This document shows, one piece after another, positions 30,449 through 41,017 of a DNA stretch of 42,760 nucleotides (position 1 is the stretch's first letter; each line of letters opens with the position of its first letter). A model generated the notes under the pieces. It saw only the letters and a program-made list of their open reading frames with translations. It made no database searches and was not told the DNA's origin. The DNA comes from an uncultured Anaeroplasmataceae bacterium. GTDB taxonomy: Bacteria > Bacillota_I > Bacilli_A > Acholeplasmatales > Anaeroplasmataceae. Where the stretch lies: assembly GCA_944325695.1 (NCBI GenBank), contig CALVBA010000008.1, positions 1 through 42,760 of the forward strand, read 5' to 3'. The translations under genes and the position numbers were made by a program.

Positions 30449-30473
30449 AAAAGTCAAATTTATACTTTCCCCC

Positions 30474-30876
30474 ATAAGTTGGACTAGTAGAAAATACTAG
30501 AAAGAATTATGGGATTTTATTATGAAATTAAGTTTAGATGATAAAGATAGACGTATTAAAGAACTTGAAGAAAGAAATGCTAAAGTTAGAAATGGAAAAT
30601 GATCTATTAAAAAAATTGAAAGTCTTGGTTCAACAAAGAACACAGCAACAAAAGAAGAAAAAAAGTTGTGTATGAATCAAGGAATATCAACTTAAAAAGA
30701 TGTTAAATTTCTTTAAAATTGAATAAAGCGATTAAATCTCTAATTACAGATATTTCTGAAGAAAATAAAACAAGATATAAGAATTTTAAAAAATTAAAAG
30801 GATTGACACCTATAATATATAGACATCAATCCAATAATCAAGTAATATTAAGTTAATTTTACTTAGTCCAATTTAT
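30474..30876 (+). mobile_element. Decayed IS3-family element with internal deletion
   Basis: The ends carry inverted repeats: ATAAGTTGGACTA at 30474-30486 and its partner TAGTCCAATTTAT at 30864-30876 (12 of 13 match). Only about 400 bp remain of an element normally 1.2-1.5 kb. Inside are fragments of the OrfA leucine-zipper region and the start and extreme C-terminus of the OrfB transposase, with several frameshifts and stops. It cannot move by itself. The 454-bp gap between the ZIP gene and the ABC gene is filled by this remnant and nothing else. Confidence 0.8.
30522..30856 (+). pseudogene. IS3-family transposase remnants (orfA/orfB)
   Basis: Three reading frames must be joined. Frame one (from ATG 30522) gives MKLSLDDKDRRIKELEERNA and stops at 30602. 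Frame two gives LEMENDLLKKLKVLVQQRTQ, the typical end of an IS150-type OrfA, and stops at 30675. Next come remnants like the OrfB start (YQLKKMLNFFKI), and after a large deletion RYKNFKKLKGLTPIIYRHQS, the usual C-terminus of the OrfB integrase, stopping at 30856. The DDE catalytic core is entirely missing. Confidence 0.8.
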
Positions 30877-30902
30877 AAGATTCAGTATAATGTAATCTTC
30901 TT

Positions 30903-32780
30903 TTATTCTAATTCGAAAGCTCCAGTATATAACTGATAATATTTTCCTTTTTGTTCTATTAATTCATCATGATTTCCGCGTTCAATAATATTACCTAACT
31001 CTAAAACCATAATCGCATCAGAATTTTGTACAGTTGATAAACGATGAGCAATAACAAATACTGTACGACCATGCATTAAACGATCCATTCCTTCTGTAAT
31101 TAACTTTTCTGTATAAGTGTCAATACTTGATGTGGCTTCATCTAAAATTAAAACAGGTGGATTTGCTATTGCCGCACGAGCTATAGATAATAATTGTCTT
31201 TGACCTTGAGATAAACTATCTCCATTACCAGTTATTACAGTATCGTATCCATCTTTTAATGTTTGAATAAAAGAATCTGCATTAGCTAGTTTACAAGCTT
31301 CATAGACTTCTTCATCTGTGGCATCTAATTTACCATATTTGATATTTTCTTTAATCGTTCCGGTAAATAAACTAGTATCTTGTAAAACAATTCCTAAAGC
31401 ACGACGTAAGTCTGCTTTTTTTATTTCTTTAATATCAATACCATCAAAAATAATTTGTCCTTCTTGAATGTCATAAAAACGATTAATTAAATTTGTGATA
31501 GTTGTTTTACCAGCACCTGTTGCCCCTACAAAGGCAATCTTTTGACCAGGCTTAGCAAATAAACTTACATTATGTAAAACAATTTTATCATCGCGATATC
31601 CGAAATCAACATCTTTAAAACGAACATCTCCTAAAACTTGTTTATAAGTAATAGTACCATCATTTGAAACACGTTTCCAAGCCCAGATACCTGTTTTTTC
31701 ACTTGCTTCAACTAATGTATCATTTTCTATTTTTACATCAACTAATGTAACAGTTCCTAAATCCTCTTCAGGCTTTTCATCAAGTAATTCAAAAATGCGT
31801 TCTGCTCCGGCAAGTGCCATAACAATTAAATTAAATTGTTGCGAAATTTGTGATATTGGCATAGAGAATTGTCTTGAAAATTGTAAAAATGGAATTAATT
31901 TGGCAATATTAAACCCTAAAACACCATAAATAGCTAAATATCCTCCTAAAATAGCTGTAAAGGCATAATTAAAATAACTTAAATTTCCTAAAACAGGCAT
32001 TAAGATACTAGCATAAACATTAGCTTTAGTAGCATCACGACATAATTCTTCATTTAATTTGTCAAAATCTTTTTTAGCATGTTCTTCGTGACAGAAAACC
32101 TTAATAACACGTTGTCCTTCAATCATTTCTTCAATATATCCATTTAAATTTCCAATTGCGATTTGTTGTAAAACAAAGTTTCGTCCACTTCTAGAACCGA
32201 TATATCGTGTAATAAAAATCATCACAACAACCATAATCATCATTAAGATTGTCAGAATAACATTTAGCATTAACATTAAAACAGTTAGTGCAACTACTTG
32301 AAAAATAGATGATAATATTTGTGGGATACTTTGACTTAACATTTGACGAAGCGTATCAGTGTCGTTAGTATATCGACTCATGATATCTCCATGACTATGT
32401 GTATCAAAGTATTTTATTGGTAATGTTTGCATGTGGTTGAACATACGATTACGAATATCTTTTAATGTTCCTTGAGCAACATTAACCATTAAACGTGAAT
32501 AAATATACGTCGAGATAATTCCTGCCACATAAACAAATAACATTTTTAAAAGTTCTTTAACTAATGGTGAATAATCTACGGCTAATCCTAAGTCAGCTTG
32601 TTGTTTTAAAGGATCAATATACTCAATAATATCTTTAATAAAATATGTTCCAATTGAACTACTTACTGCACTAATGAAAATACAAATAACAACTATAACA
32701 AAAGTAACAGGATAGTTTTCTAAGATTAATTTGATTAATTTACCCAAAATAGACATGGGATTTTTTGCTTTTTTCTTCAT
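30903..32780 (-). CDS. Heterodimeric ABC exporter subunit, canonical ATPase (cassette 1)
   Basis: Multidrug/peptide-type ABC exporter half-transporter of 625 aa: a six-segment membrane domain (about 1-330) and a nucleotide-binding domain (about 380-620). Walker A GATGAGKTT and Walker B ILDEATSSID with the catalytic Glu are canonical, while the signature is altered to LSQGQRQL. The partner 32783-34498 has the complementary defects, as in BmrCD/LmrCD-type heterodimers. A 40-residue linker with EKTGIWAWKRVSNDG between the two domains is characteristic of this subgroup. The ribosome-binding site GAAAGGAG overlaps the stop of the partner gene. Last gene of marR-ABC-ABC; the IS remnant lies just beyond. 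Confidence 0.93.
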   Translation of the reverse strand: MKKKAKNPMSILGKLIKLILENYPVTFVIVVICIFISAVSSSIGTYFIKDIIEYIDPLKQQADLGLAVDYSPLVKELLKMLFVYVAGIISTYIYSRLMVNVAQGTLKDIRNRMFNHMQTLPIKYFDTHSHGDIMSRYTNDTDTLRQMLSQSIPQILSSIFQVVALTVLMLMLNVILTILMMIMVVVMIFITRYIGSRSGRNFVLQQIAIGNLNGYIEEMIEGQRVIKVFCHEEHAKKDFDKLNEELCRDATKANVYASILMPVLGNLSYFNYAFTAILGGYLAIYGVLGFNIAKLIPFLQFSRQFSMPISQISQQFNLIVMALAGAERIFELLDEKPEEDLGTVTLVDVKIENDTLVEASEKTGIWAWKRVSNDGTITYKQVLGDVRFKDVDFGYRDDKIVLHNVSLFAKPGQKIAFVGATGAGKTTITNLINRFYDIQEGQIIFDGIDIKEIKKADLRRALGIVLQDTSLFTGTIKENIKYGKLDATDEEVYEACKLANADSFIQTLKDGYDTVITGNGDSLSQGQRQLLSIARAAIANPPVLILDEATSSIDTYTEKLITEGMDRLMHGRTVFVIAHRLSTVQNSDAIMVLELGNIIERGNHDELIEQKGKYYQLYTGAFELE

Positions 32781-32782
32781 TC

Positions 32783-34498
32783 TTAGGCTCCTTTCACTTG
32801 TTGATTATAAATATCTCTGTATAACTCATTTCGATTAATAAGTTCTTCATGTGTACCAATATCACTGATTTTTCCATCATTTAAAACAATTATTTTATCA
32901 GCTTCCATAACACTTGAAATACGTTGTGCAATAATAATTTTTGTTGTATTAGGAATTTCTGTTTTAAATGCATAACGAATCTGTGAGTCTGTTTTAGTAT
33001 CAACTGCACTTGTTGAATCATCAAGAATTAAAATTTTTGGTTTTTTTAATAAAGCACGAGCGATACATAAACGTTGTTTTTGTCCTCCTGAAACGTTAAC
33101 ACCACCACGATCAATATGAGTATCATATTTTTCTGGGAAACGTTCAACAAATTCTGCTGCACAAGCTAATTCAGCAGCATGTTTAATTTCTTCTAATGTT
33201 GCGTGTTCATTTCCCCATCGTAAGTTGTCCGCAATTGTTCCAGAGAATAATACATTTTTTTGTAATACAACACTTACTTCATTACGTAAAACTTCAATAT
33301 CATAATTTTTAACGTTTATTCCACCTACTAATAACTCACCTGATGTAACATCATATAAACGTGATATAAGTGAAACTAAACTTGTTTTAGAACTTCCTGT
33401 AGGACCAATAATTCCAACTGTTTCTCCACTTTTGATATCAATATTAATGTTTTCTAAAACTGCTTCACCATTTTGATAACAGAATGTAACATCTTTAAAT
33501 TGGATATCACCATTTGGTACCATCATAGCAGGATTTTCTGGATTAGTAATATCAATTTTTTCATGCAATACTTCTAAAATACGATCTAATGATGCTTTTG
33601 ACATGACAATCATCGCTAAAACTGTTGAAAACATCATTAAGTTCATTAAAATTTGCATTACATAACTTAAGAAAGTAGAAATTAGACCAACTAGCATTTC
33701 ATCAGCAACTACCATTTTTGCACTTAAATAAGAAATTAATAAAATACTTCCATATAAAACAAATTGTAATGCTGGAGTGTTTAAAATTAATAATTTTTCA
33801 GCACCCTTAGAATATCCATATAAACTTGTATTTGTTGAGAAGAATTTTTTCTTTTCTTCTTCTTCATTAACAAATGCCTTAACAGTACGAATTCCTGAAA
33901 TATTTTCTTGAACTGTACGATTTAATGAATCATACTCTTTGAACAACTTTTTAAAATACGGATTAGCAAAATGTATTACTAAATATAATGCAATAGATAA
34001 TAATGGGATTGCAAAAACAAAGATCATCGCTAATTTCATATTTAGAATCATTGACATAATTAATGAAAAAATAATCATAAATGGTGCTCTAACTGCAACA
34101 CGAATGATCATTTGAAATGAATTTTGCACGTTATTAACATCTGTTGTAATACGTGTAATTAAACTCGGTGTTGAAAAATGATCAATATTTGAAAATGAAT
34201 AATCTTGAATTTTGTGATATAGTGCTTGTCTTAAGTTTTTCGCAAATCCACAACTACTAATAGCACAATAACGACCACTAATAATTCCAAATGTTAACGA
34301 AAAAATACTTAACACAACCATTAAAACACCATATAAAATACATGCATTAATATCACTTTTATTAATTCCTTCATTAATCATTAGATTCATAACGAATGGT
34401 ATAAATACTTCTAAAATAACTTCTAATGATACAAAGACAGGTGATAAAATGGTTTCTTTTTCATAACCTTTTGTAAACTTTAACAACTCTCTAACCAT
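32783..34498 (-). CDS. Heterodimeric ABC exporter subunit, degenerate ATPase (cassette 1)
   Basis: A 571-aa half-transporter with membrane domain (about 1-310) and ATPase domain. The signature VSGGQKQR is intact. Walker B reads ILDDSTSAVD with Asp for the catalytic Glu, the known degenerate site of heterodimeric exporters. The Walker A is GPTGSSKTS: the Gly before Lys is Ser (codon TCT), which is unusual even for degenerate sites. It pairs with 30903-32780. Start ATG behind AAAGGAGTAG, 3 nt after the marR stop. Substrate unknown. Confidence 0.93.
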   Translation of the reverse strand: MVRELLKFTKGYEKETILSPVFVSLEVILEVFIPFVMNLMINEGINKSDINACILYGVLMVVLSIFSLTFGIISGRYCAISSCGFAKNLRQALYHKIQDYSFSNIDHFSTPSLITRITTDVNNVQNSFQMIIRVAVRAPFMIIFSLIMSMILNMKLAMIFVFAIPLLSIALYLVIHFANPYFKKLFKEYDSLNRTVQENISGIRTVKAFVNEEEEKKKFFSTNTSLYGYSKGAEKLLILNTPALQFVLYGSILLISYLSAKMVVADEMLVGLISTFLSYVMQILMNLMMFSTVLAMIVMSKASLDRILEVLHEKIDITNPENPAMMVPNGDIQFKDVTFCYQNGEAVLENINIDIKSGETVGIIGPTGSSKTSLVSLISRLYDVTSGELLVGGINVKNYDIEVLRNEVSVVLQKNVLFSGTIADNLRWGNEHATLEEIKHAAELACAAEFVERFPEKYDTHIDRGGVNVSGGQKQRLCIARALLKKPKILILDDSTSAVDTKTDSQIRYAFKTEIPNTTKIIIAQRISSVMEADKIIVLNDGKISDIGTHEELINRNELYRDIYNQQVKGA

Positions 34499-34501
34499 AT
34501 A

Positions 34502-34930
34502 CTACTCCTTTGATAAATTTTCAATTGCTAAATCTGTTTTATTTAAAAACATCAATAGTAATTTTTTTTCATCTGCACTAAACGTGGAAAGAACTTGATT
34601 TTCAAAATCATAAATTATACTACGAATAACATTACTTAATGATAATGCTTTATCGGTTAAAATAATTTTTTTAAAGCGATAATCACTATTATTAGACTCT
34701 CTAACAATTAAACCATCACGTTCCATTAATTGTAAGATACTTGTTATTGAAGATTTTCGAATTTCAAAATGATTTAATAAATCTTTTTGATAAATATCTC
34801 CCTGACTTTTTGATATAAACAAAATAAAACGAGCTTGAATAAATGTTATACCATATTTAGACAACTTTTTATCAATCTCGCGTTTTATTTTATTTGACAA
34901 GGTGTTTATTTTCTTTAAAATACCGTTCAT
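34502..34930 (-). CDS. MarR-family regulator of ABC cassette 1
   Basis: A 142-aa winged-helix protein: ITFIQARFILFISKSQGDIYQKDLLNHFEIRKSSITSILQLMERDGLIVRES contains the helix-turn-helix (QKDLLNHFEIRKSSITSILQLME), followed by a wing with SDYRFKKIILTD. First gene of the cassette, directly followed by the two exporter genes. A strong promoter with an inverted repeat at the start site precedes it, so autorepression released by a ligand is the likely logic. The start ATG is preceded by GGTGAT at short distance. Confidence 0.9.
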   Translation of the reverse strand: MNGILKKINTLSNKIKREIDKKLSKYGITFIQARFILFISKSQGDIYQKDLLNHFEIRKSSITSILQLMERDGLIVRESNNSDYRFKKIILTDKALSLSNVIRSIIYDFENQVLSTFSADEKKLLLMFLNKTDLAIENLSKE

Positions 34931-34993: not shown

Positions 34994-35007
34994 TTAAATG
35001 AAAACAT

Positions 35008-35583
35008 TTACAATAAGTTATTTACTTTTCGATATAAATAAACTATCGTTTTTTCCAATAAAATAATCCCTAATAATATTAAACTTCCATAAAAACTAAT
35101 CTTTTTTCTCATTATACTAGAATAAGAGTACGGTCTAATTTGCAGTTTTTCATAATAATAATCATCAGATTTTTTTACTTGAACAATTACAAAATCTTGA
35201 TTTTTATAAACTACACAAAAATCTTGATTATAATAATAATTTTTTAATGTTATTTCAATATCCTCTAAATTACAATCTAGCTCAACTTTAGGTAACTCAT
35301 TATCGGCTATTATTTCATACTTTAACGAAACAAATTGAACTTCTTCTGCTTTTTTTAACTGTAAAATTAACTCATGCTCACCAGGATAATCAAAAGAATT
35401 TAAGTAATATCCCAAATTTAAAACTACAATTTCATCGTATTCATCAAATTTATAAGAACTATTTATAAAATCATCAATATAGCAAATTCCATCACTTTGA
35501 CAAAAGTAATAATTGTTATTATTATTAAAAATAGGATTAAAAAACAATGTTATACATTGTATAAAATAAAAAAACTTATTCAT
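35008..35583 (-). CDS. Unrecognised membrane-tethered protein
   Basis: 191 aa, no family recognised. A hydrophobic N-terminus (about 3-18) could be a signal peptide. It is followed by an Asn run (FNNNNNYYF), an acidic, Tyr-rich extracytoplasmic domain of about 130 residues with several cysteines, and one C-terminal membrane segment (about 165-183: SFYGSLILLGIILLEKTIVYL) followed by a short basic tail. Start ATG behind AGGTGG. It lies 40 nt after the methyltransferase gene and is probably co-transcribed with it, although a TATAAT lies in the gap. Composition is very AT-driven, like its neighbours. Confidence 0.7.
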   Translation of the reverse strand: MNKFFYFIQCITLFFNPIFNNNNNYYFCQSDGICYIDDFINSSYKFDEYDEIVVLNLGYYLNSFDYPGEHELILQLKKAEEVQFVSLKYEIIADNELPKVELDCNLEDIEITLKNYYYNQDFCVVYKNQDFVIVQVKKSDDYYYEKLQIRPYSYSSIMRKKISFYGSLILLGIILLEKTIVYLYRKVNNLL

Positions 35584-35623: not shown

Positions 35624-36754
35624 TTACTTTGTAAACATTAAATCATAAAGTGTTTGTTTAATTTGATAGTCTTTTAATAATTCATCTAATTCTTTTTTAA
35701 TAACTTCTTGCTTCGTATCATTAATTTCTTGATAACTACATCTTAATAAAATATTTTTAGGTGAATGAATTGAATCAATAAACTCTAAAACTTGCACCTT
35801 ATAACCAAAATATTCCAAGATATTAGCTCTAATCGCATCAGTTAATAAACTTGAAAAACGTTCTTTTAAAAGACCGTATTTATTAATCAAATGTAAACTG
35901 CTATTTTTTAACTGATTATTAATTTCATGTTGACAGCATGGAACACTAAATAAATATTTCACTTGATAATTTATAGCGTGATAAATAGCGTAATCTGTAG
36001 CTACATCACATGCATGTAATGTTATAATCATATCCACTTTAAAATCTGGTTTATATAAACTAATATCACCTAATTTAAAATCTAGGTTTTGATATTTATA
36101 TTTATCTCTTATCTCATTACATTGAGCAATAACATCTTTTTTTAAGTCCAATCCGATTATCTTTACATTCATTTTTTTTACATCAACTAAATAATAATAC
36201 AAAACAAATGTCAGATAAGATTTTCCACAACCAAAGTCAATGATATTCAATTCTTTTTCATCTTTTATAGCATCATCGATCATCTCAAGAAAACGACAAA
36301 TTTGTTTGAACTTATCGTATTTAGACTTAACTATTTTACCTTCATTTGTCATGACACCTAAATCTATTAATGGTGGTATGATATCACCTTCATTAATAAT
36401 ATATTTCTTTTGCTTGTTGTGATCTAATGAAACTTTTAAATTATTTGTTAATTTTTTCGAAGTAGTTAGTATTTTTCCTTTTTTAGATTTTTTATACATA
36501 ACATATTCATCTAGTAAATATGCATCTAATTGTTTAAAATGTTCATTAAATAATTCCTCAATTTTTTTCTTGGCTTCTTCCAATGATAAGTTAATATGAA
36601 ATGCTTGTTTATCGGTAAACGATTCAAATTGATACTTTACATTATCCTTAATTTTAACTGGTTTTATTATAACCTTATTATAATCATAATCTTTATTTAC
36701 TTTATTACTTAAAATTATTTTAACAATCTTTTCATTAATTAAATCTGTTATCAT
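35624..36754 (-). CDS. SAM-dependent methyltransferase, Methyltransf_32 (METTL25/RRNAD-like)
   Basis: 376 aa. The class I methyltransferase core is at about residues 150-300: motif I NIIDFGCGKSYLTFVLYYYL, an acidic end of beta-2 in KIIGLDLK, then ITLHACDVATDYAI and LFSVPCCQHE, the signature of the Methyltransf_32 group. The N-terminal 130 residues are a family-specific Lys-rich domain, which suggests a nucleic-acid or RNP substrate. The substrate is not known. Start ATG behind GGTAGGAG, with an extended -10 promoter directly upstream. Confidence 0.85.
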   Translation of the reverse strand: MITDLINEKIVKIILSNKVNKDYDYNKVIIKPVKIKDNVKYQFESFTDKQAFHINLSLEEAKKKIEELFNEHFKQLDAYLLDEYVMYKKSKKGKILTTSKKLTNNLKVSLDHNKQKKYIINEGDIIPPLIDLGVMTNEGKIVKSKYDKFKQICRFLEMIDDAIKDEKELNIIDFGCGKSYLTFVLYYYLVDVKKMNVKIIGLDLKKDVIAQCNEIRDKYKYQNLDFKLGDISLYKPDFKVDMIITLHACDVATDYAIYHAINYQVKYLFSVPCCQHEINNQLKNSSLHLINKYGLLKERFSSLLTDAIRANILEYFGYKVQVLEFIDSIHSPKNILLRCSYQEINDTKQEVIKKELDELLKDYQIKQTLYDLMFTK

Positions 36755-36774: not shown

Positions 36775-36783
36775 ATTATATCA
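36775..36783 (-). promoter_or_regulatory. Extended -10 promoter of the methyltransferase gene
   Basis: TGATATAAT on the minus strand, directly after the T run of the small-RNA terminator and 20 nt before the ATG. Confidence 0.55.
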
Positions 36784-36786
36784 CAT

Positions 36787-36887
36787 AAAAAAAGAAAAAA
36801 GGTGAATTAAATTCACCAAGTTCGAGAAAAGAAAAATGTCTATGGACATATGAGAAAAAATTATTTATTTAGCTTAATTTCTTAAGC
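36787..36887 (-). ncRNA. Candidate orphan small RNA of about 100 nt
   Basis: A strong promoter ends 7 nt before a transcript that would begin exactly with the hairpin GCTTAA-GAAA-TTAAGC (36872-36887). A second hairpin ATGTC-CATA-GACAT (36836-36849) follows, then the terminator GGTGAAT-TTA-ATTCACC (36801-36817) with a long T tract. There is no ribosome-binding site and no complete reading frame before the terminator. It does not look like 6S, SRP RNA, RNase P RNA or tmRNA. It could alternatively be an attenuated leader of the methyltransferase gene. Confidence 0.5.
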
Positions 36888-36893
36888 ACGGTA

Positions 36894-36922
36894 ATTATAT
36901 CGAAAAACTACTTATATGACAA
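36894..36922 (-). promoter_or_regulatory. Promoter of the candidate small RNA
   Basis: TTGTCA (36917-36922), 17-bp spacer and TATAAT (36894-36899) on the minus strand. It lies downstream of the cassette 2 terminator, so it is independent of that operon. Confidence 0.7.
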
Positions 36923-36973
36923 GTTTTTTTTATTTGAAAATGTTTTTAATTGTTATAAAAATTTTTTCATAAT

Positions 36974-37007
36974 AAAAAAGTAAATCACTTAAAGTGATCT
37001 ACCTTTT
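36974..37007 (-). terminator. Terminator of ABC cassette 2
   Basis: AAAGGTAGATCACTT and AAGTGATTTACTTT pair with a single mismatch, and a T run follows on the minus strand; 7 nt after the stop. Confidence 0.85.
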
Positions 37008-37013
37008 TAAAAC

Positions 37014-38789
37014 TTAATTTTCAGAAAATTGTGAATTATATAAATCAGCATAGAAACCATTTAAAGTAATTAATTGCTCATGATTTCCCGTTTCGATAAT
37101 ATTTCCATCTTTCATAACTAAAATTAAATCAGCATTTTTAATAGTTGATAAACGATGTGCAATAACAAAACTTGTTCTTCCTTCAGTTAATTTATCCATT
37201 GCTTTTTGAATTAAAATTTCAGTTCTAGTGTCAACGCTAGATGTTGCCTCATCCAAAATCAACATTTGTCTATTAGCTAGCATTGCACGAGCAATAGTAA
37301 ATAATTGTTTTTGTCCTTGGCTTAAATTAGCATTATCATCTAATACCATATCATATCCACCTGGTAAAGAACGAATGAAATAATCAATATGAGCCATCTT
37401 ACATGCTTCATATACTTCTTCATCTGTGGCATCTAACTTACCATATTTAATATTTTCTTTAATTGTTCCTTCAAATAACCATGTGTCTTGTAGAACCATT
37501 GAGAATAAACTATGAACACATTCACGTGTCATATCTGTTGTTTTAATACCATCGATAATAATATCCCCACTATTTAATTCATAAAAACGCATTAATAAAT
37601 TAACAATAGTTGTTTTTCCAGCTCCAGTAGGTCCAACAATGGCTACTTTTTGCCCTGCTTTAACTTTAATTGAGAAATCATTAATAATAATTTTATCTTC
37701 TGAGTATCCAAATTTAACATGATCAAACTCTACATTTCCTACTACTTTTTCCATTTTAGTAATTTTATCTTTTTCGAAAGTCATTTCTGTTTCATTAAGG
37801 AATGTAAATACGCGATCACTTGCGGCTGCTGTTTGTTGTAAAACATTTAAGATTTGAGCAATTTGTCCTAATGGTTGATTAAATTGGCGGATATATTGAA
37901 TGGAAGCAACAATATCTCCAACCTTTAAAGTTTTATTTGCAGCCATATTTCCACCAATTATACAAATAACAATATATGCTGCATTAGAAACGAATGTCAT
38001 AATTGGCATCATCATTCCAGATAAAAATTGACTTTTATATGATGAATTATATAGTTTTTTATTAATACTATTAAATTTAATACTTACTTCATCTTCTGCA
38101 TTAAATACTTTAATAACATTATGTCCAGAGTACACTTCTTCGATATGTCCGTTTAACTCTCCTAAGCTTTCTTGTTGTTGCTTAAAGTAACGTTGTGATT
38201 TACCTACAACAAAGAACATTAATATCATCGAAACAGGAACAGAAACTAAAGCAATAACGAACATAATCCAACTAATCGAGATTAACATTATGGAAATTCC
38301 AATTAACATTGTCATACTACTAACTAGTTGACTTATTGCTTGGTTTAACGATTGTCCTAGTGTATCAATATCATTTGTCGCAACACTTAAAACATCACCG
38401 TGTGTACGTGTATCAAAATAATTTAATGGTAATCGATTAATTTTATGGCTAATATCACGACGTAATCGATTACATACTGTTTGCGTTACATGTGTCATAA
38501 TACGTGCCTGTATATATTGAGCAATAGCACTAAAAATGTAAATACCAATTAAGATAAATCCAATTTTATTAATATATTTAAAATCAAATTCGACACTGCC
38601 ACTTACTAATACATCTTGAATATGATTAGTAATTCTTGACAGAATTTTTGGACCTGTAATAGAGAAAAATGTTCCAAAAGCAGCTAATAAAACAGCAAGA
38701 AGTATTAAGCCACTATATGGTTTTAAATATCTAAATAGATCGCCTAAAGATTTTTTTACATCAACTTGTTTATTTGGCATCCTTTTCAT
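37014..38789 (-). CDS. Heterodimeric ABC exporter subunit, canonical ATPase (cassette 2)
   Basis: A 591-aa half-transporter with six membrane segments and a C-terminal ATPase: Walker A GPTGAGKTT, degenerate signature LSQGQKQLF, Walker B ILDEATSSVDTRTE with the catalytic Glu. It parallels the gene at 30903-32780 but lacks the 40-residue linker insert. Its partner is 38791-40551. It starts one base after the partner's stop codon, with AGGAGG about 12 nt upstream. It closes the marR-ABC-ABC cassette, and a strong terminator follows. Exported compound unknown. Confidence 0.94.
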   Translation of the reverse strand: MKRMPNKQVDVKKSLGDLFRYLKPYSGLILLAVLLAAFGTFFSITGPKILSRITNHIQDVLVSGSVEFDFKYINKIGFILIGIYIFSAIAQYIQARIMTHVTQTVCNRLRRDISHKINRLPLNYFDTRTHGDVLSVATNDIDTLGQSLNQAISQLVSSMTMLIGISIMLISISWIMFVIALVSVPVSMILMFFVVGKSQRYFKQQQESLGELNGHIEEVYSGHNVIKVFNAEDEVSIKFNSINKKLYNSSYKSQFLSGMMMPIMTFVSNAAYIVICIIGGNMAANKTLKVGDIVASIQYIRQFNQPLGQIAQILNVLQQTAAASDRVFTFLNETEMTFEKDKITKMEKVVGNVEFDHVKFGYSEDKIIINDFSIKVKAGQKVAIVGPTGAGKTTIVNLLMRFYELNSGDIIIDGIKTTDMTRECVHSLFSMVLQDTWLFEGTIKENIKYGKLDATDEEVYEACKMAHIDYFIRSLPGGYDMVLDDNANLSQGQKQLFTIARAMLANRQMLILDEATSSVDTRTEILIQKAMDKLTEGRTSFVIAHRLSTIKNADLILVMKDGNIIETGNHEQLITLNGFYADLYNSQFSEN

Positions 38790-38790
38790 A

Positions 38791-40551
38791 CTACTCTAAT
38801 TCCTCCTTCGATAATTGTGATAAGGCAATTTCTTGATAAACTTCACAAGTATCTAAAAGTTCTCTATGAGTTCCTTTTCCAACAATTTTACCTTCATCTA
38901 AAACAATAATTTGATCTGCATCAATAATCGTTCCGATTCTTTGTGCAACAATGATATTTGTTGTATTTTTAGTGTGTTCTTTTAATGCAGCACGTAATTT
39001 CTTATCTGTTTTATAATCAAGCGCACTAAAAGAATCATCAAAAATTAATATTTCTGGTTTTTTAATCAAAGCACGAGCGATACTTAATCTTTGACGTTGA
39101 CCACCAGATACATTTGTTCCACCTTGACTAATCTTAGTATCATATTGTTGGTCAAGTTTGCTTATAAATTCACTTGCTTGAGCAATTTGTGAAGCTTCAT
39201 CCATATCAGTAGTTGTTAAATCACGTTTACCAAATTCATAGTTAGTTTTAATAGTTCCAGAAAATAAAACACCTTTTTGTGGAACATAACCTATTTTATT
39301 ACGTAAATCTTCTAATTTATAATTACGAACATCAACACCATCAACTAAAACTTCTCCTGCTGTAACATCATATAATCGAGGAATTAAATTAATAATTGTA
39401 GATTTACCACTACCTGTAGCTCCAATGATGGCTAATGTTTCTCCTTTTTTAACTTTAAAACTGATATTTGAAACAACATCATCACTGGCATCTTCATATC
39501 TAAAAGCGACATTTCTAAATTCAACTTCACCTTCAATATCAGTTGATTGTTGTGGAACTTTTGGATCAACAATTAAATTTTTAGTATTTAAAACTTCTAA
39601 AACACGTTTAGCGGAAACTTGAGCACGTGGGAAGAAAATTAAAAACATTGAAAGCATCATAAACGAAATAATGACTTGCATTGCATATTGTGTAAATGTC
39701 GTTAATACTTCATAATCTAATGTTAAATTGTGAACTAAATATGATCCAAACCAAACAATTGCTAATGAAACACCTGACATTATTAATGTCAATGCTGGCA
39801 TTAAAATATTCATATTATTATTTACAAAAATATAGATGTTTGTTAATTTCTTATTAACATCATCAAATTTCTCTTCTTCAATAGATTCTGTATTGTAAGC
39901 TCTAATAACACGAATCCCTGTTAAATTTTCGCGAGTTACACGGTTTAACTCATCTGTTCTACTTTGGATTTGACGATATTTCGGTAAAACAATTAAACAT
40001 AAAGAAACAATTACAGTAATTAAGGCGAAAACTGCTCCCGCAATTACAACCGATAAATTAGGACTTTTATCTACTGCTTTAAAAATTGCAATTGCTGCAG
40101 TAATTGGTGAAGCAATTGCTATTCTAAACATCATAATCATAACAGTTTGAATTTGGGTAATATCATTTGTAGTACGCGTAATTAAACTTGCAGTTGAAAA
40201 TTTATCAATTTCTTGTAATGAAAAAGATTCTACTTTATGGAATACTTCACTACGAAGTTTTAATGATAAACCACTACCAATACGGGCAGCTAATAAACAA
40301 ACAATAACATTACTTACTAATGATAGGCTGACATAACCTAACATAATTAATCCATTACGATAAATTACAGCTTTATCACCCATCGCTGCAATTACTGGGT
40401 TGTTATTTCCGATAATCATAATTTCACGGATAATTTTTTCCATTAAATCAGGTAGTTGTAAATCTGAATAACAGGCAATAAAAACCAGAAGCACAACTAC
40501 TAAACTTAATATCCATTCTTTAATTGAAAAATATTTAAATAATTTAAACAT
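38791..40551 (-). CDS. Heterodimeric ABC exporter subunit, degenerate ATPase (cassette 2)
   Basis: A 586-aa half-transporter. Walker A GATGSGKST and signature VSGGQRQR are intact; Walker B ends IFDDSFSALD, with Asp for the catalytic Glu, so this subunit supplies the degenerate site. The membrane domain (about 1-320) carries the usual KLRSEVFHKVESFS coupling region. Its start overlaps the marR stop by 8 nt and its GGAGG lies inside marR, so translation is coupled. Same architecture as 32783-34498 but with a normal Walker A. Confidence 0.94.
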   Translation of the reverse strand: MFKLFKYFSIKEWILSLVVVLLVFIACYSDLQLPDLMEKIIREIMIIGNNNPVIAAMGDKAVIYRNGLIMLGYVSLSLVSNVIVCLLAARIGSGLSLKLRSEVFHKVESFSLQEIDKFSTASLITRTTNDITQIQTVMIMMFRIAIASPITAAIAIFKAVDKSPNLSVVIAGAVFALITVIVSLCLIVLPKYRQIQSRTDELNRVTRENLTGIRVIRAYNTESIEEEKFDDVNKKLTNIYIFVNNNMNILMPALTLIMSGVSLAIVWFGSYLVHNLTLDYEVLTTFTQYAMQVIISFMMLSMFLIFFPRAQVSAKRVLEVLNTKNLIVDPKVPQQSTDIEGEVEFRNVAFRYEDASDDVVSNISFKVKKGETLAIIGATGSGKSTIINLIPRLYDVTAGEVLVDGVDVRNYKLEDLRNKIGYVPQKGVLFSGTIKTNYEFGKRDLTTTDMDEASQIAQASEFISKLDQQYDTKISQGGTNVSGGQRQRLSIARALIKKPEILIFDDSFSALDYKTDKKLRAALKEHTKNTTNIIVAQRIGTIIDADQIIVLDEGKIVGKGTHRELLDTCEVYQEIALSQLSKEELE

Positions 40552-41017
40552 TGTATTCCTCCATCATTTTATTCAACTTTGCCATTATGCGTTTTAGATC
40601 TTTAATATCTTCATCATCTAAAGCATTTAATACACTTAAAAATATTAAATCAAACTTCTTAATGGTCTGTTCAAAAGATTGAATGGCTAGATCTGTTAAA
40701 CGAATATATTTTGTACGCTTATCATCATCTAAACTATACTTATAAATTAATCCCTTTTTTTCTAAGTTAGTTAATTTATGCATAATTGCCGGGATTGTCA
40801 CATCATTGTTTTTGGCAATTTCACTAATCGATATAATTTTATTTTCGCACTGAAACTTGTATAAACTATAACAAATCATCCCTTCAATCGGAGTAAGATT
40901 TTGCTCTTTAAAAACCATTTCATGAATATTTCTTAAACGCTTACTAACTACTTTTAGTTCTTGATATATTGCTAAATTTTTGTCGTCAGAAATTGTTGTA
41001 TTATTTAGTTCTTTCAT
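40544..41017 (-). CDS. MarR-family regulator of ABC cassette 2
   Basis: 157 aa. The winged helix is IISISEIAKNNDVTIPAIMHKLTNLEKKGLIYKYSLDDDKRTKYIRLTD, where DDDKRTKYIRLT is the wing with the conserved D-x-R. It is clearly different from the regulator of cassette 1, with a longer N-terminus (MKELNNTTISDDKN). Start ATG behind GAAAGGAG. First gene of its cassette, overlapping the next by 8 nt. Two overlapping inverted repeats in its promoter suggest autoregulation. Confidence 0.92.
   Translation of the reverse strand: MKELNNTTISDDKNLAIYQELKVVSKRLRNIHEMVFKEQNLTPIEGMICYSLYKFQCENKIISISEIAKNNDVTIPAIMHKLTNLEKKGLIYKYSLDDDKRTKYIRLTDLAIQSFEQTIKKFDLIFLSVLNALDDEDIKDLKRIMAKLNKMMEEYNV

Follow-up and report, generated by a model that had tools for sequence, protein, structure and literature searches.

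A predicted small RNA gene beside a methyltransferase gene in an uncultured Anaeroplasmataceae bacterium, and a conserved, apparently undescribed small RNA family in its sister genera

Among described regulators, the mode of action likely to come closest to that of the RNA considered here is that of CcpA-controlled small RNAs such as RsaI of Staphylococcus aureus, which acts in trans and is repressed by CcpA (PMC9266662). The cre box of CcpA has the consensus WTGNNARCGNWWWCAW, and in Bacillus subtilis cre boxes located upstream of the -35 element accompany activation, with an effect that depends on the face of the helix (PMC3463425). Trans-acting small RNAs encoded between genes generally have their own promoter and intrinsic terminator within the gap, where no convincing coding frame is found, and it is this combination that we find at the locus studied here.

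We analyze a stretch of 42,760 nucleotides (the window; G+C content 28.7%) from the genome of an uncultured Anaeroplasmataceae bacterium (1.34 Mb, 97% complete). A gap of 259 bp separates an ABC transporter gene (37014-38789) from a gene for a Methyltransf_32 protein, and the predicted RNA lies in this gap on the minus strand. A preliminary description of the sequence had proposed that, between two genes unrelated to each other, a near-consensus sigma-A promoter (TTGTCA-17-TATAAT) drives a transcript that starts on a GNRA-capped hairpin and continues through a second small hairpin to an intrinsic terminator. We recover every one of these parts at its proposed place, all on the minus strand, and the two flanking genes are indeed unrelated. 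In window coordinates, the parts of the locus are:

35624-36754, minus strand: gene for a SAM-dependent methyltransferase, Methyltransf_32 (PF13679), with AGGAG at 36766-36762
36775-36783, minus strand: extended -10 element TGATATAAT, proposed as the methyltransferase gene's own promoter from its sequence and from a similar TGTGATAAAAT before the orthologue in genome G004
36788-36817, minus strand: intrinsic terminator (by sequence), with the stem GGTGAATTTAATTCACC (36817-36801) followed by the T run TTTTTTCTTTTTTT
36793-36887, minus strand: predicted small RNA of about 95 nt, starting at G36887 with its 3' end in the T run (by promoter and terminator geometry, fold and shuffles)
about 36836-36849, minus strand: second hairpin AUGUC-CAUA-GACAU (by fold)
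36872-36887, minus strand: 5' hairpin GCUUAA-GAAA-UUAAGC with a GNRA cap, at the expected start site (by sequence and fold)
36894-36899, minus strand: -10 hexamer TATAAT, with a spacer of 17 (by promoter scan)
36917-36922, minus strand: -35 hexamer TTGTCA (by promoter scan)
36935-36947, minus strand: cre-like operator AAAAACATTTTCA (relatives' form AAAAACGTTTTCA), its center 42 bp upstream of the -10 hexamer (by motif scan)
about 36974-37008, minus strand: long-stemmed terminator closing the ABC transporter operon that lies upstream (by sequence and fold)

The promoter matches the sigma-A consensus at 11 of 12 positions and has the top promoter score between 36000 and 38500; the probable start, G36887, lies 7 nt beyond the final base of the -10 hexamer. 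The minimum free energy of the RNA is -16.6 kcal/mol, compared with -8.75 +/- 2.26 in shuffles (z = -3.5), and only one of 200 shuffles folds equally well. Promoter-like sites alone are frequent in the window (13 promoters of 11/12, against 4.6 in shuffles), and we therefore place the evidential weight on the combination of promoter and terminator. When we ask for a terminator 60-160 nt beyond a promoter that scores 11/12 or better, the window yields a single composite, namely this RNA. Dinucleotide shuffling yields none, whether the window (0/60) or the gap (0/2000) is shuffled. By itself, the GNRA-capped stem is not unusual, with three matches of at most three mismatches in the window against 1.2 expected. 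Our best reading of the locus, which we consider somewhat better than an even bet, is a stand-alone small RNA gene; the promoter and terminator, the fold and the absence of the composite from shuffles all speak for it.

Searches for relatives of the RNA itself return little. It matches no Rfam release 15 family at the gathering threshold, the covariance search that had been proposed as a check, and permissive thresholds yield nothing relevant. No second copy is found in its own genome, and its exact 5' end is absent from viral contigs. DNA BLAST of the locus against 60 relatives, and then against all 55 family genomes, gives short AT-rich matches only, and a covariance model built from the single sequence finds weak matches in the 60 relatives (best 30 bits) and no relative; on inspection, almost all of these matches lie within or overlap open reading frames and are mostly chance. 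The preliminary description's undescribed RNA of roughly 100 nt thus stands insofar as a stand-alone small RNA is favored and Rfam holds no match. Its body has no relative in any of the 54 other family genomes, a weak test of conservation because none of them is from the same genus, and this confinement to one genome counts against the stand-alone reading. What related species do have in common with the locus is the operator-like site and the slot by the methyltransferase gene.

Now we consider how far the RNA is independent of its neighbors. On the upstream side, the terminator of the ABC transporter operon separates that operon from the RNA. On the downstream side, the order beyond the RNA's own terminator is TGATATAAT, AGGAG and the methyltransferase ATG; G004 (L043) has the comparable TGTGATAAAAT in the corresponding position before its orthologue. 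In folds of partial transcripts, each of the two hairpins and the terminator forms on its own, and the terminator's 5' arm pairs only weakly with sequence upstream, so that we see no clear attenuator. The operon's own terminator, the extended -10 and AGGAG of the methyltransferase gene and the lack of a strong anti-terminator all speak for a stand-alone gene. In a tree of 23 methyltransferase proteins the window protein groups with Peptostreptococcus (support 97/93) and not with its own taxonomic family, so that the gene may not be in place by descent, and horizontal transfer is possible. Two similar MarR - ABC - ABC operons (30903-34930 and 37014-41017), looking as if one had been copied from the other, flank the methyltransferase region, and a 454-bp gap at 30449-30902 contains broken frames that by eye resemble the remains of a transposase gene.

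We traced the methyltransferase into 24 relatives to compare the gaps upstream of it. The relatives with this neighboring gene come from gut and rumen, are uncultured and carry the labels Acholeplasmatales, Erysipelotrichaceae or Bacillales, taxa in which, to our knowledge, few small RNAs have been described and for which the window RNA is a concrete candidate. In genus g2 (G001, G007) the 150-bp gap before the methyltransferase gene is 98-100% identical, while the flanking coding windows are mostly 76-94% identical (minimum 68%); within this gap, a promoter is followed by a weak 5' hairpin, a stretch rich in U and C, and a terminator. A search with the g2 gap leads to G010, and from there to G015, G013, G002 and G008; these five genomes, which belong to g3 and g5, have in common CGUAUUC(A/G)C - loop - G(U/C)GAAUAC, the stretch UUCCUGUAAAUCUUUUCUUUUUC, which is unchanged between the two genera, and a terminator stem. 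The predicted family members are:

L168:1524-1615, plus strand
L045:1676-1770, minus strand
L050:2936-3027, minus strand
L037:3458-3549, minus strand
L055:2319-2410, minus strand
L051 and L052:2624-2698, minus strand

The unpaired core of this family, UUCCUGUAAAUCUUUUCUUUUU, is exact in g3 and g5 and takes a variant form in g2 (UUCCUACAAUCUUUUCUUUUUU). In an alignment of 7 sequences, of which 6 are distinct, pairing is kept in 95.7% of pair cells, five pairs are changed on both sides (1.7 in shuffles) and the terminator stem covaries. In g3 and g5 the RNA lies upstream of a small membrane-protein gene, itself before the methyltransferase gene in several genomes, and since this downstream gene has its own promoter of the TTGAAA-17-TATAAT type, the RNA there stands as a separate unit. 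Nothing in Rfam matches the family. Its covariance model, run on the 55 genomes of the Anaeroplasmataceae, finds members in g2, g3 and g5 only (65-97 bits) and nothing else above 30 bits. Outside g3 and g5 the exact core is found nowhere in 160 genomes of the order, and 395 genomes of the class yield two matches with 2 mismatches, at the level of pattern only. Long complementary targets of the core, searched with its 19-nt complement in six genomes, show no excess over a reversed control; the UUCCU of the family could face AGGAA. We conclude that this small RNA family is strongly conserved and apparently undescribed; it has an unpaired stretch of 20-odd nt that is invariant in g3 and g5, we propose that it is linked to carbon catabolite control, and it is a more solid novelty than the window RNA. 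For the latter, it is an argument for the stand-alone reading that five g3/g5 genomes have a predicted RNA of the same layout and that two g2 genomes have one directly before the methyltransferase gene.

The proposed link to catabolite control comes from the operator. A palindrome built around AAACGTTT lies ahead of the -35 element in all seven family members, and in its form, TGTAAACGTTTTC(T), it is similar to the cre box. The distance from the center of this palindrome to the -10 element is 41 bp in g2 and 51-53 bp in g3 and g5, approximately one helical turn apart. When up to one mismatch to AAAAACGTTTTCA is allowed, the 42.76 kb of the window contain a single site, AAAAACATTTTCA, where 0.5 would be expected over the two strands; it differs from the AAACGTTT operator by one mismatch, CA for CG, and its spacing of 42 bp falls within the 41-53 bp of the family. 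In all 11 genomes tested, the ccpA model picks out a LacI-family protein, in every case below the curated cut-off of 442 bits, and the source genome has one such CcpA-like protein, at 286 bits. The operator, which has no second site in the window and lies nearly at the distance seen in g2, and the CcpA-like protein in the genome count in favor of a stand-alone RNA under CcpA-like control; set against this are the scores below the cut-off and a site without the central CG of cre boxes. A second cre-like palindrome, TGTAAATGTTTTCA (34999-35012), with a CA/TG center, immediately precedes the TTGACA/TATAAT promoter of a MarR-ABC-ABC operon and resembles the site preceding the window RNA.

How else might the locus be read? 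The main rival, which the preliminary description had already named as the alternative, is a 5' leader of the methyltransferase gene that starts at 36887 and whose conditional terminator governs read-through. The T run of the RNA ends only about 33 nt before the methyltransferase start, a terminator-like hairpin stands just upstream of the gene in many relatives, and in g2 the equivalent terminator is followed at once by GGAGG and the ATG, so that there, with no room for another promoter after the terminator, the gene must rely on read-through. Against this, the window gene has its own predicted extended -10 (TGATATAAT) and AGGAG beyond the terminator, no convincing fold disarms the terminator (we found no mutually exclusive terminator and anti-terminator), no riboswitch family matches, and in g3 and g5 the gene that follows the RNA is another one, with a promoter of its own. 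The extended -10 weakens the leader reading, which we judge unlikely. Quite unlikely is a transcription unit without regulatory role, that is, a promoter and a terminator present by chance in AT-rich intergenic DNA: although the RNA body is confined to one genome and 11/12 promoters alone are as common in the window as noted above, their composite with a terminator never arises in shuffles, the fold is well below that of shuffled sequence and the operator is common to relatives. An open frame is also present, with an ATG in the second hairpin, that would make the RNA a short mRNA for a hydrophobic peptide of 22 residues, but it has no Shine-Dalgarno sequence upstream, crosses the terminator stem and T run, and is rich in phenylalanine and leucine as expected of frames in T-rich DNA; we regard this as very improbable.

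A different question, which refines the stand-alone reading, is whether the window RNA is a fast-diverged orthologue of the g2/g3/g5 family with its body rewritten. It lies upstream of the methyltransferase gene as in g2, it has the family's order of operator, promoter, start-site hairpin, pyrimidine-rich stretch and terminator, and its spacings are nearly those of g2 (operator to -10, 42 and 41 bp; -10 to stem, 6 and 6 nt); moreover, no other family member was found in the source genome. The body, in contrast, does not follow. The family core UUCCU(G/A)(U/C)(A)AAUCUUUUCUUUUU is not in the window RNA, where the best alignment is no better than shuffles (p = 0.61), and its pattern is absent from the source genome at up to 3 mismatches. 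The family covariance model gives the window RNA 18.0 bits (E = 0.21), the second-best match in the window, where members score 65-97 bits, and nhmmer with the family finds no match there. The grouping of the methyltransferase with Peptostreptococcus means that the gene itself may have moved. An apparent UCC-N8-UUUUCUUUU likeness between the RNA and the family was dropped on the same comparison with composition-matched shuffles (p = 0.6). Because the body differs, even though the two are alike in position, arrangement of parts, operator and spacing, we do not file the window RNA in the family, and we hold orthology as a tentative possibility. The stronger statement, that it is a retargeted descendant in which operator, promoter and slot were kept while the RNA was rewritten, is doubtful; if true, it would be a case of a regulatory RNA switching its pairing stretch under unchanged control. 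What seems probable, if not by a wide measure, is that the window RNA is the source species' own RNA, occupying the place that a conserved small RNA has in sister genera.

Returning to the stand-alone small RNA gene, we can sketch how it might work. Sigma-A RNA polymerase would start at about G36887 and stop at the terminator, giving an RNA of about 95 nt. The GNRA hairpin would close and protect its 5' end, and the middle would consist of two unpaired U/C/A-rich stretches around the small hairpin. The likeliest action would be for an unpaired stretch to pair in trans with one or more mRNAs. Pairing with Shine-Dalgarno regions, as suggested in the preliminary description, finds no support in these stretches, which hold UUUUCUC but no CCUCC/CUCCU-like run. 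A CcpA-like regulator at the operator-like site would set the output; since a site in this position, upstream of the -35 element, usually means activation in Bacillus subtilis, we expect activation, and the RNA would be made while the catabolite regulator is active.

The locus can thus be set beside three kinds of system. With the sister family it has in common the operator, promoter, start-site hairpin, unpaired pyrimidine-rich stretch, terminator and slot near the methyltransferase gene; the family has CGUAUUCAC..GUGAAUAC plus its core, whereas the window RNA is without such a core and has a GAAA-capped stem and an extra hairpin. Attenuator and riboswitch leaders, of which the window itself contains an example in a T-box leader (2078-2279, 119.6 bits) upstream of a threonyl-tRNA-synthetase-like gene, likewise place promoter, hairpins and terminator close before a gene; unlike them, the window RNA has no family match and no convincing anti-terminator, and precedes a gene with its own predicted promoter. 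RsaI resembles the window RNA as a small intergenic RNA, with catabolite control and pairing being proposals for the latter, and differs in that Rfam scans give no sequence match and that the G-rich and Shine-Dalgarno-pairing motifs of RsaI are not seen. Finally, while RsaI is repressed by CcpA, the position of the site at the window RNA suggests control of the opposite sign, activation.
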